Positions 36,521 to 61,688 of a DNA stretch of 64,000 bases are shown piece by piece. This DNA is from Streptomyces flavofungini. Lineage in GTDB: Bacteria; Actinomycetota; Actinomycetes; Streptomycetales; Streptomycetaceae. The stretch spans positions 3,636,001 to 3,700,000 of the forward strand of contig NZ_CP128846.1 of assembly GCF_030388665.1 (NCBI RefSeq), read 5' to 3'. The translations under genes were made by a program, and so were the position numbers. The notes beneath the pieces are model-generated. The model searched no databases. It was not told where the DNA came from and worked only from the letters and a program-made list of their open reading frames with translations. Within the stretch, counting starts at the first letter, position 1, and each line of letters opens with the position of its first letter.

Positions 36521-37462
36521 ATGCCGGACCGCAGCCTCCGCCTCCCACCGTCCTTCGCGTACGGCCCGCCCCTCGCGGACGGCCCGTCCTTCGCGGCGGG
36601 CGCGTCCGGCTCGACACCTGGGAGGCGGGACGGGTCGACAGTGCTGCGGGACGGTGGCGGGCAGCCCTCGTCGCCGCCTCGGGGGTCCGAGGGCTCCGGT
36701 GATTCCGGCAGCTCCGGTGGAGCCAGTGGTTCCGGCAGCTCCGGCGGCTCCGGCGGTTCCGGTGGTGGCTCCTCCGAGGACAATCCGTTCGCGCCGCCGC
36801 CCGAGGGCGCGCCCGAGCGGCCGTGGCAGCCGCGGCGGCCCGCGGGCGGGTCGGGCGGCGACGGTTCCGATGGCTCCGGCGGCGACTCGCCTTGGGGCAG
36901 CCAGTGGAGCGACCGGCAGCCCGGGCGGTCGTCCGGCGGCGGCTTCGGCGAGCGCCCCGGCAGCCAGGGCCCCGAGGGTTCGGGATCCGGTTCGGGCGGC
37001 CAGGGCGGCGGCATGCGCTGGGACCCGACCGACCCGGCCCAGCGCCGTGCCCGCTACGCCCTGCTCTCCGGCATGTGGGCCTTCTTCTTCGCGCTGTTCG
37101 GCTGGCAGTACGTGGCGCTGCTGCTCGGCGCCCTCGGTCTGCACTGGGCCATCAGCGCCCTGCGGGCCAAGCCGAAGCTGCCGGACCCGACGGCCCCGGC
37201 GCAGGGCGGGACCGGGGAGAACGGCGCGGCCGGCGGGTCGCGGCCCGCGAGGGCCGGCGGTCGGCCGCAGACCACGGCGGCGATCAGCGGTCTGGTGACG
37301 GCCGCGCTGGCGCTGACCATGGTGCTCGCCACGTTCGCCGCGCAGCTGATCTACCGGGACTACTACACGTGCCGTGACGACGCCCTGACGAACCAGTCCC
37401 GCCAGGACTGCGAGGACATGCTGCCGAAGCAACTGCGTCCGCTCCTGACGGACCGGGACTGA
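36521..37462 (+). CDS. Gly/Ser-rich two-helix membrane protein
   Basis: 313 residues; ATG 36521 with AAGGGGAAGA about 11 nt upstream. Residues 1-165 are disordered, first a PPLADG-type stretch, then Ser/Gly tracts ([12 protein letters not shown]). Hydrophobic regions lie at 176-215 ([20 protein letters not shown]) and 251-278 ([18 protein letters not shown]). The C-terminal outside tail has two Cys ([19 protein letters not shown]). The ending [13 protein letters not shown] is typical of a conserved Streptomyces neighbour of purN. Function unknown. Confidence 0.85.
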
Positions 37463-37486: not shown

Positions 37487-37520
37487 GACGGCCCTCCCAC
37501 GACCGCGTGGGAGGGCCGTC
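37487..37520 (+). terminator. 15-bp terminator of the Gly/Ser-rich membrane protein gene
   Basis: GACGGCCCTCCCACG and CGTGGGAGGGCCGTC pair perfectly around ACCG, 24 nt past the stop at 37462. Confidence 0.85.
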
Positions 37521-37551: not shown

Positions 37552-37594
37552 CGGCGAAGGGCCCCTCACTCGTGGAGTGAGGGGCCCTTCGCCG
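37552..37594 (-). terminator. 20-bp terminator directly after the tRNA-like gene
   Basis: CGGCGAAGGGCCCCTCACTC (37552-37571) pairs perfectly with 37575-37594 around GTG. It starts 1 nt after the CCA end of the tRNA-like RNA on the minus strand, the usual place for a tRNA terminator. Confidence 0.85.
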
Positions 37595-37595
37595 A

Positions 37596-37667
37596 TGGAG
37601 CGCCCGGCAGGCCTTGCACCTGCATTTCCCATCGGATGATGGGCGTCTTTCCTTGGACCACAGACGC
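37596..37667 (-). tRNA. tRNA-Gly-like RNA with abnormal anticodon and T loops
   Basis: 72 nt including an encoded CCA. All stems form: acceptor GCGUCUG/CGGGCGC (7 pairs, two G-U), D stem GUC/GAC with G16 G17 in the 8-nt loop, anticodon stem CCCAU/AUGGG, T stem GCAGG/CCUGC. The variable loop is AAAU. The discriminator is U, and pairs 1-3 are G-C, C-G, G-C. These, with CC in the anticodon loop (CAUCCG), are the bacterial glycine identity set. Oddities: the anticodon loop has 6 nt and A where U33 belongs, and the T loop is UGCAAGG (G at position 55). It has a promoter (37703-37732) and a terminator (37552-37594). It is either a decaying tRNA-Gly(UCC) gene or a dedicated non-decoding glycyl carrier. 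Paired stems with intact transcription signals favour function. Confidence 0.7.
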
Positions 37668-37702
37668 GCGACTCCCGTGCTGTGCACCGAAGTTACGCCA
37701 AG

Positions 37703-37732
37703 ATCGTACACGAATTCCGGGGTACTGATCAA
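37703..37732 (-). promoter_or_regulatory. Vegetative promoter of the tRNA-like gene
   Basis: TTGATC (37732-37727), 18-bp spacer, TACGAT (37708-37703), close to the HrdB consensus. Predicted start about 30 nt before the mature 5' end of the tRNA-like RNA, enough for an RNase P leader. Confidence 0.75.
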
Positions 37733-37833: not shown

Positions 37834-39579
37834 TTACGTGTCGTGGCTCGGGTCGGGGCCCGGGGCGGGGAGGAAGTCGTAGGGCTCGAAGGTCGGGGGC
37901 GGGGGCGGGGGCGGGGCGGGAGGCAGTGGTGGTGAGGGGAGGGCGTCGGGCGCCGAGTCGGCGGTGGGCGCCGCGCCCCCGATGGGAGACCCGTCCACGG
38001 CGGGCACCGCGTCGACGGCGGGCACCGCCTCGGCCTCCGGCGCCGCCTCCGTGCGGGCGGCCACCACCCCCGCCCCACCGCCGGACACCGCGCCTGCGGC
38101 CACCTCCCCCTCGACCGCCCCCCGTCCGCGCCGACGCCCGCGCCACCACCGCGCCCCCCAGCGCCCGGCACCGCGCTTCCTCCTGCCCCGTTCGTCCCGC
38201 TCGCCCAGCTCGACCCGCTCGACCTGCCCGCCCCGCCCGCCCCGTTCGTCCCGCTTCCCCGCCGCCCCGCCCGGCCCGGCCTCCGCCCTGTTCCGCTTCC
38301 CCTCCGCCCGCGACCGGGCCCGCAGCCGCAACCACCGCGCTCCCAGCGCCACCGGCACCCCCACCACACCCGTCCACGCCACCGCCGCCAGGCCCGTGAG
38401 CCACCACACCGGGCCGAACTCGGCCAGGACCTCGACCCCGAGCGGCCCCCCGGCGAGCCCCGCGAGCGCCGCGCACGCGCCGCCGCACAGCACCGCCGCC
38501 GTCCCGGCTCCCGCCGCTGTCCGCCCCGCCGACCAGGCGGAATCCCCGGCCGTCGCCGCCCGTGCCGCGAACCACCCGAGCACGCATCCGGCCACCACGG
38601 GCACCGCCACCACCGCCCAGGTCAGGGGCGATCCCGGGCCGGCATCGGGGACGGCCGCGAGCAGCGGGAACGGGGGCAGCATCGGGGCGGCGGCCGCGTC
38701 GAGCGGCGTCACGACCGTGCCCGCCCCCAGGACGAACCCGGGCCCGAGCCCGTACGCCGCCCCCCACACCGCGGCGTTCGGCACCAGCGCCAACGCCAGC
38801 AGGAGCACCGCGAACCGTCCCGACCAGCCCGTGGTCACCGTCAGGAACGACTCCCGCACCGGGCCGCCGTGCAGCACCACCGCGACCCCGACGAGCAGCG
38901 CTCCCCCGCCGACCAGGACCGCCGTCGCCGCGACGGCCGCCCGGCCCGCGCCGAGCACTCGTTCGCGTACGAAGAGACGACGTACCGCGCCGGGCACCGG
39001 CAGCGCGTCCGCCGCGCGCCGCACCGCGTCCGGGAGCGGACCGGGCGGGCGCCCGTGCGCCGTCCACACGCCGTAGGCGGCCGCCGCCACGGCGAGCGTC
39101 GGCACGTGCGCCGCCGCGCTCGGCCAGGAGGGACGCAGCTCGCCGCCCGCCGCGTACACCGCCGCCGCTGTCGCGACCAGCAGGTAGCCGCCGACCACGC
39201 CCGCCCACGCGGTGCGCACGCCGAGCGCGCGCCCCTCCGGGTCCGCCGCGTCCCGCGCCGCGCGGTGCACCAGCCAGGCGGGCAGGGCGAGCAGCAGCAG
39301 CGGAGTGAGACCCACCGGCGCGGGCACCCCGGAAAGGGTCTCGGTGCGGACCAGTTCCGTGCCGTGCGCGAGGAGCCACAGCGCGGCCGCCACGTGCAGC
39401 GCGCCCCCCGGTCCGCTGTCCGGGTACGGCGAGCTGATCCACAGGCCCATCACCAGGACCGCGAACGCGCCGAGCCCGAGCCCGGCGGCGATCGCCCCGC
39501 CGATGACGCAGGTGCCGAGGCCGGGTGCCGCCTGCTTCCGGTAGAGCGTGAGAGAACCAGAGTCGGTCATGTCGGTCAC
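37834..39579 (-). CDS. DUF6350-like polytopic membrane protein
   Basis: 581 residues from GTG 39579 (GGGAG 9 nt upstream); ATG three codons later is the alternative. About ten hydrophobic segments in residues 20-425 ([52 protein letters not shown], and others). Then follows a long Arg/Glu/Gly-rich, then Pro-rich cytosolic tail ([30 protein letters not shown]). The start [18 protein letters not shown] fits the actinobacterial family next to purN/purH. No catalytic motif. Transport or envelope role possible. Confidence 0.85.
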
Positions 39580-61287: not shown

Positions 61288-61552
61288 CCCGCCCCGGGTT
61301 CCGCGAGGCCGCCCGGAGCCCGCCCGGTTCTCGGCCACGCCCGCGCTCCGCGCCCGGCCCGTCACGCTGTGCCACGGTCCCGGCTCCGCGCGCCAGGGCG
61401 GCGCCAAGGGCCTCGGAAAGTCACGAAAATGTATCGGGCATATCGAACATCATCCTTCCCTCGCGCCACGGGAGTTGGCTAGCGTGCTGCGCGGGCCGCA
61501 CGTCCCCCCACCGGCGATCCCCGCCGGTCCCGCGCGGCCTCCGCCGAGTCCG

Positions 61553-61688
61553 ACGCGTTCGGAGCCGGGGACCCACCACGTTCTTTGGGGTGAATCCGTT
61601 CCGTACGGCGTGCGGAACGGTAGGGCAGCCTTCCGAAGCAACCGCCCGAACCCGACAGCTAACCCGGTAGGCGGTCCACGGAAGGAGT
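61553..61688 (+). ncRNA. ydaO-type c-di-AMP riboswitch
   Basis: Shows the family's conserved blocks in order: GAGCCGGGGACCCA, TTTGGGGTGAATCC, GGAACGGTAGGGCAGCC, TTCCGAAGC, CCGAACCCGACAGCTAACC and GGTAGGCGG. It ends right at the GGAAGGAG ribosome site of the NlpC/P60 gene. c-di-AMP binding normally switches expression off. A TAGCGT (61480-61485) upstream may be the -10. Boundaries are approximate. Confidence 0.9.

Follow-up and report, generated by a model that had tools for sequence, protein, structure and literature searches.

A dispersed family of tRNA-Gly-like RNAs in Streptomyces, a genus-wide core form, and a possible role away from the ribosome

The window, i.e. the whole analysed stretch of 64,000 nucleotides, holds on its minus strand a compact unit that sits between a DUF6350 gene (37834-39579, Pfam match) and a plus-strand gene ending at 37462. 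Its features, in the order of transcription, are as follows:

37727..37732, minus strand: TTGATC, a -35-like element with an 18-nt spacer, not kept across the family
37703..37708, minus strand: -10 element TACGAT, ending 35 nt upstream of G1
37700..37705, minus strand: GATCTT, close to the expected transcription start, matching the published Gbn motif GATCWT
37671..37693, minus strand: leader hairpin ACUUCGGUGC-ACA-GCACGGGAGU, read from the sequence; family leaders fold better than shuffles
37596..37667, minus strand: tRNA-Gly-like RNA of type B, 72 nt from G1 to the encoded CCA (sequence, alignment to the family)
37633..37638, minus strand: anticodon loop CAUCCG, 6 nt (C32, A33, UCC, G38) (sequence, alignment)
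37612..37618, minus strand: T loop UGCAAGG with G55 (sequence, compared with canonical tRNA-Gly)
37552..37594, minus strand: intrinsic-terminator-like hairpin, 20 bp with a 3-nt loop, 1 nt past CCA; a downstream hairpin is found family-wide

The 72-nt cloverleaf with encoded CCA and U73 described in an earlier note can be read directly from the minus strand, and RNAfold of 37598-37669 returned a cloverleaf as both the minimum free energy and the centroid structure, with one extra closing pair in the anticodon and T loops. The acceptor stem (GCGUCUG/CGGGCGC) has seven pairs, two of them G-U, and is joined by a 3-bp D stem, the anticodon stem CCCAU/AUGGG and the T stem GCAGG/CCUGC, which forms G49-C65, C50-G64 and A51-U63. 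Folding energy by itself is no proof of this cloverleaf, since the z score is -1.8 and 12 of 200 shuffles were equally stable. The pairs G1-C72, C2-G71 and G3-C70 are present as claimed, and the window copy carries all six elements of the bacterial glycine identity set, which further comprises U73, C35 and C36 (PMC9976931). The 6-nt loop with A33 was also found as described, but the anticodon, given earlier as CC, aligns as UCC, and the base missing in comparison with the 7-nt family loop CUUCCUG is U37. With a 6-nt anticodon loop, A33 and G55, the loops indeed appear unfit for ordinary decoding. The supposed failure of elbow packing stands only in part: the G18-Psi55 contact is impossible with G55, but most other contacts (U8-A14, A15-U48, G26-A44, G19-C56 and U54-A58, judged from the letters) can form. 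Likewise, the proposed promoter retains its -10 element 35 nt before G1 but loses its "-35" TTGATC, which is not conserved in the family, while the 20-bp hairpin starts 1 nt after CCA as reported.

Both ARAGORN and Rfam miss the window copy, which was not among the 69 matches of a genome-wide Rfam tRNA search. The general tRNA model scoring suggested in the earlier note does not pick up this copy; a covariance model built from 20 copies (R1) finds the family. Beyond the single RNA described earlier, there is a multi-copy family and, in addition, a genus-wide core form designated type C. The 46 distinct cores of the family comprise 35 of type A and 11 of type B. Type A, the majority form, has the acceptor strand GCGUUGG and the 7-nt loop CUUCCUG with a UCC anticodon and U33. 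Type B, to which the window copy belongs, has a 6-nt loop with A33 and lacks U37; a 7-nt loop with U33 occurs in all 35 type A cores and in none of the 11 type B cores. ARAGORN, given 11 loci, reported tRNA-Gly(tcc) for all eight of type A and nothing for the three of type B; with the Rfam tRNA model, the type A locus L003 reaches 39 bits. Neither ARAGORN nor the Rfam model, as used here, picked up type B. In an order-wide draw, in which the types were told apart by match length (73 versus 74), six genomes had type B. Since none of these six has a strong type A match, the two types seem to replace each other by lineage.

BLAST with the whole unit gave matches in 12 of 41 genomes, including its own, one of which (G015) matches the terminator only; leaving G015 and the own genome aside, the unit is present in 10 of 40 relatives, all of the same genus. 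A second copy lies in the same genome at G000:C1:5369785-5369945. On plasmids, 131 BLAST places were found in 67 records, 65 from Streptomyces and two from Streptantibioticus, and a pattern scan of named genomes returned at least 120 stretches, the 80 titles among the matches listed all being Streptomyces. With R1, 111 of 199 Streptomyces genomes were matched at E 0.01 (108 below 1e-12, one at about 5e-9 and two near 0.008). One match was seen in 61 of these 111 genomes, two in 27 and three to six in 23; these numbers overstate the copy number of types A and B, because some include the type C match (e.g. G189, G288, G260). In the order-wide draw R1 matched 81 of 147 genomes, 76 strongly and five weakly. 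The weak matches (G004 and G114, and the five of the order-wide draw) were not taken as family members, and G183 (5.1e-9) is intermediate, counted inside the 109 genomes of the FemAB comparison below and outside the 108. Of eight loci with weak R1 matches (E 7e-4 to 0.27), six proved to be tRNA-Arg(tct) (L209, L242-L246, E up to 0.005), L248 is a tRNA-Trp and L247 has no tRNA. Types A and B were not found by R1 in 90 of the 199 genomes (the two weak matches left out), hence they are dispensable. A phage or viral element was rejected, as there was no match in 50,697 phage records and none to the family pattern in viral contigs. A search of the titles and abstract openings of the open-access literature, with subscription papers outside its reach, found no description of the family.

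The identity positions lie outside the search pattern that selected the 46 cores. C35, C36 and C2-G71 are present in all 46, and G1-C72, G3-C70 and U73 in 45 each. N34 varies (UCC, ACC, GCC), as does loop length (7 or 6 nt), with C35-C36 constant, as would be expected if the synthetase rather than the codon constrains the loop. Position 37 is a pyrimidine (G in one core) or missing. The invariance of the D arm, G49, A51 and the T loop in the 46 cores is no evidence, because the pattern fixed them. G55 was, however, present in all 27 BLAST-found copies with the D-arm word, for which the T loop was not a selection criterion, and A51-U63 in all 20 copies selected without regard to the T arm. Within the 46 cores, U63 occurs in 44 and the other two have A-G (A51 pattern-fixed), G49-C65 occurs in all (G49 pattern-fixed), and the second G of G18G19 in 45 (the first pattern-fixed). 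Four loci that are degenerate or masked and off the pattern (L196, L198, L207, L208) were left out of these counts, and L199, with a cut 3' acceptor strand, was included.

Alignment across Streptomyces, also suggested earlier, revealed compensatory stem changes. Standard pairs fill 777 of the 782 pair cells in the 46 cores. In 1000 shuffles they averaged 715 and never exceeded 732, and sliding one side left 307-417 of 736-782 cells with such pairs, neither control being corrected for relatedness; the independent stem changes may be few in number. Pair 31-39 is seen as G-C, C-G, A-U, U-A and G-U, pair 30-40 as C-G, A-U (11 cores) and U-G, and pair 6-67 as G-C, U-G, C-G and U-A.

The flanking signals are retained as well. 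C74 is present in all 169 flank-distinct copies and the encoded CCA in 73. Among 108 thinned copies, 107 have a downstream hairpin with z < -1.5, and the leader folds in 70, versus eight in an upstream control (mean z -2.0 versus -0.02). GATC occurs at -50 to -28 in 86 of the 108 copies, where shuffles predict 11, and the longer GATCWT in 61. The latter is the sequence published as the binding motif for Gbn, a nucleoid protein (PMC9239103), which makes it a candidate Gbn site. The family promoter consists of a conserved extended -10 (TGnG before TAnnnT) and GATC; the window copy fits the extended -10 partly. Promoters, leaders and terminators differ in letters between copies and keep their structure. 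The claim that the tRNA-Gly-like RNA is conserved and has transcription signals of its own is hence borne out by a family that has promoter, leader and terminator in relatives. The earlier note had allowed for a plain pseudogene, recognizable by absence or random decay in relatives. Stems and signals did not decay without compensation: the 777 standard pairs are kept with both sides changing, as are the 107 terminator-like hairpins. The window RNA therefore does not look like a pseudogene, and the observation is confirmed as real, yet the window site itself is empty in relatives. The neighbouring gene could be aligned in 14 of them (12 with at least 300 nt beyond) and no copy was found there, and neither the D-arm nor the T-loop word occurred in any of 15 relatives' loci for this site. 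A riboswitch or attenuator was also considered and rejected, since the 381 nt around the window copy gave no Rfam family near its gathering score at E <=10, and the downstream genes and terminator letters vary between copies. The sole Rfam match at gathering level in the window is a c-di-AMP (ydaO/yuaA) riboswitch at 61532-61688 on the plus strand (81.4 bits). Just past the RNA terminator, where the convergent plus-strand gene ends, lies a second strong hairpin (37487-37520).

Neighbour clustering placed 164 copies in about 96 gene contexts, a number blurred by short loci and gene-calling errors; the first clustering was dominated by two very large clusters, which were taken for wrong-frame ORFs. 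Judged by position, copies occur on plasmids, towards the ends of chromosomes and also within core regions. The commonest context, with 21 copies, is downstream of what we take from its sequence to be tsaD and an 85-aa gene. A partner gene was rejected, as neither neighbour clustering nor nearest-gene Pfam analysis gave a recurrent family (the commonest accounted for 4 of 84 upstream and 2 of 85 downstream neighbours). An RNA ligase neighbour (L031) is a single case, and so are genes that read as immunity-like from their proteins. Similar-looking large NTPase genes (GNAGVGKTSL) lie near copies in two genomes (L322 9868-12804, L206 10025-13486).

Such scatter, together with the empty window site and the duplication of whole units, would also fit a selfish or neutral tRNA-derived repeat with no host function; three loci of one genome (L015, L021, L024) are alike through leader and terminator, so whole units do duplicate. 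We nevertheless consider a mere repeat very improbable. Terminal repeats or target duplications were not seen by eye, the signals keep their structure despite changed letters, the stems show compensatory pairs, and a strong type A match is absent from all six genomes for which type B matches were listed.

Type C (GCGGGUGUAGUUCAGUAGYAGAAC...CUUCCAG...GCAGUGUGCAAUUCCUGU...CACCCGCU) was located via weak R1 matches. By BLAST it is present in 198 of 199 Streptomyces genomes, every one at E 1.7e-18 or better, whereas the same query does no better than E 2e-4 with the canonical Gly tRNAs of this genome. The type C gene here is located at G000:C1:4916740-4916813 on the minus strand, near a tRNA-Gly(GCC) and near genes that we read as lsr2 and purSQL. 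Its oddities are AG at the G18G19 positions, a malformed T loop and A51-U63, the latter in all five distinct type C sequences; G49-U65 is kept. A covariance model of type C (R2) scored at least 95 bits in 28 of 28 Streptomyces genomes of a 296-genome class draw. In the other genomes of the draw the best E was not below 5e-15, with at most 73.8 bits among the matches listed, and two genomes had no match; 15 genomes of the same order outside Streptomyces reached 72.9 bits at best, and canonical Gly tRNAs score 47-65 bits. Because the model rests on five near-identical sequences, diverged relatives could escape it. Types A and C have in common the T arm GCAG-(U)GUGCAA-...CCUG, which makes a common origin of A/B and C plausible. 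Type A is 66% identical to type C and type C 75% to the canonical CCC tRNA; as type C is closer to the latter than to type A, A/B need not descend from type C.

The genome already encodes canonical tRNA-Gly with UCC, CCC and GCC anticodons (27 loci out of the 69 tRNA matches were covered), so decoding needs no extra tRNA-Gly. The family resembles canonical tRNA-Gly(UCC) in its cloverleaf, U73, G1-C72, C2-G71, G3-C70, C35 and C36 and, for type A, in the ARAGORN call. A/B differ in the 3-bp D stem, G55, A51-U63 and a pyrimidine or missing base at 37, and type B in its 6-nt loop and A33. A/B are 52-58% identical to the Gly tRNAs of their own genome (type A 52-56%); five canonical Gly tRNA genes seen there have G49-U65 in all five and G51-C63 in three. 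Types A and C might simply be ordinary extra tRNA-Gly(UCC) for GGA codons, type B being a lineage-specific decayed form. U33 and UCC in both types favour this, as do the ARAGORN calls of tRNA-Gly(tcc) for the eight type A loci and one type C locus (L197) and the Rfam score of L003. We regard it as quite unlikely, given the canonical tRNA-Gly(UCC) and the odd T arms and A51-U63 common to the forms. Moreover, the stems and the identity set are retained across the 11 distinct cores of type B, the type B copies inspected have the -10, GATC, and leader and terminator hairpins, and six genomes, typed by match length, have type B with no strong type A match beside it; type B is hence not simply decaying.

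The reading we prefer, which we put just short of an even chance, is that the locus encodes a glycylated tRNA-Gly paralogue kept off translation and donating its glycine non-ribosomally. Bases read by glycyl-tRNA synthetase are kept and features favoured by the ribosome and EF-Tu are lost: type B lacks U33 and the 7-nt loop length, and A51-U63 replaces G51-C63; this combination favours a glycylated tRNA working off the ribosome. A real tRNA-Gly paralogue would be transcribed, processed and CCA-matured, and the ordinary glycyl-tRNA synthetase would charge it. Poor EF-Tu binding through the weak pair A51-U63 would keep it off the ribosome, in type B helped by the 6-nt loop without U33, and an aminoacyl-tRNA-dependent transferase would pass the glycine to a non-ribosomal acceptor. 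We infer that the accessory A/B copies could boost the supply of donor beside the core type C, whose T arm is similar. Against this, type A with U33, UCC and a 7-nt loop might still decode GGA.

A parallel exists in Staphylococcus aureus, whose non-proteinogenic tRNA-Gly serve the pentaglycine bridge. As described in one study (PMC4052509), they too are extra to the decoding set and combine the glycine identity set with altered elbow contacts and with A51-U63, listed there as a weak EF-Tu pair. In contrast to those RNAs, in which G18G19 is replaced and A49-U65 present, almost every A/B core retains G18G19, and the pair at 49-65 is G49-C65 in A/B (G49-U65 in type C). A/B further differ in G55, type B in its 6-nt loop without U33, and A/B are dispersed, multi-copy and accessory, their use by Fem enzymes being hypothetical. 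By this analogy, and still more tentatively, Streptomyces may have an off-ribosome glycyl-tRNA pool made up of core type C and an accessory multi-copy branch, which in one lineage (type B) would have lost decoding with synthetase recognition kept. Such a pool, if real, would serve cell-wall Gly bridges or another glycyl transferase throughout the genus. The same study calls the diversion of aminoacyl-tRNAs from the ribosome to cell-wall and antibiotic enzymes mostly unclear, S. aureus excepted, and a tRNA-Gly line that lacks a decoding loop and retains the glycine identity bases offers a testable handle in a major antibiotic-producing genus.

Decoding would be equally unnecessary if the extra tRNA-Gly acceptor ends were decoys that soak up tRNA-Gly-specific toxins (acetylating GNAT, toxSAS pyrophosphokinases, anticodon nucleases) or a GlyRS-binding regulator. 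TacT is described as recognizing U73 and G71 of Gly-tRNA (PMC9976931) and FaRel2 as selecting tRNA-Gly by its acceptor stem (PMC11559606), and the positions read by such toxins are conserved in the 46 cores. A patchy, multi-copy and plasmid-borne family, spread on plasmids and chromosome arms, would also suit a defence-like accessory gene. However, an acceptor-stem decoy would not require invariant C35 and C36, no toxin or immunity family is among the best 25 recurrent neighbour families on either side, phage records and viral contigs hold nothing, and type C is found genus-wide. We therefore consider a decoy unlikely.

For the preferred off-ribosome glycine donor, the best single candidate for the acceptor enzyme would be FemX, which adds Gly to LL-DAP, with a transferase of natural-product synthesis or of some other kind equally open. 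The earlier note had found this cell-wall role an attractive idea; it finds no support so far. FemAB (PF02388) was detected in all 199 Streptomyces genomes irrespective of A/B status, 45% of them being without A/B. Its count, taken as matched stretches with a baseline of two that is probably one gene, did not differ between the 109 genomes with A/B and the 90 without (p = 0.30); extra FemAB in A/B-bearing genomes was thereby rejected. In the class draw 134 of 296 genomes have FemAB, and R2 found no type C-like RNA in the 106 of these outside Streptomyces. A cell-wall role for type C is possible, but the distribution gives it no support, as FemAB is universal in the genus, unrelated to A/B and, outside the genus, present without type C. 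No transferase gene recurs beside the copies by nearest-gene Pfam. A dedicated second GlyRS was likewise rejected: dimeric-type GlyRS gave the same two matched stretches in all 199 genomes, and this uniform pattern shows no sign of an extra enzyme.

Two other groups of odd bacterial tRNAs invite comparison. The tRNA-ProX genes of Streptomyces and Kitasatospora are, like the family described here, accessory odd tRNA genes of the same genus, but they are described as working on the ribosome and as joining the identity of a proline tRNA to a different anticodon (PMC11415595), whereas in the present family the anticodon fits the identity and decoding appears impaired. The tRNA-Other pseudo-tRNA of Bacillus cereus is tRNA-like, reported to be non-translational and linked to cell wall and antibiotic resistance (PMC3399842); the likeness is by description only, in a different host and setting, and concerns a single locus beside a genomic island. 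In the genome studied here, a further odd tRNA (L200, G000:C1:8028680-8028754, plus strand) was called tRNA-Ala(agc); its 36.5 bits lie far below the scores of all others among the 69 tRNA matches. As one tRNA-ProX variant bears AGC (PMC11415595), L200 may belong to this published mistranslating family.
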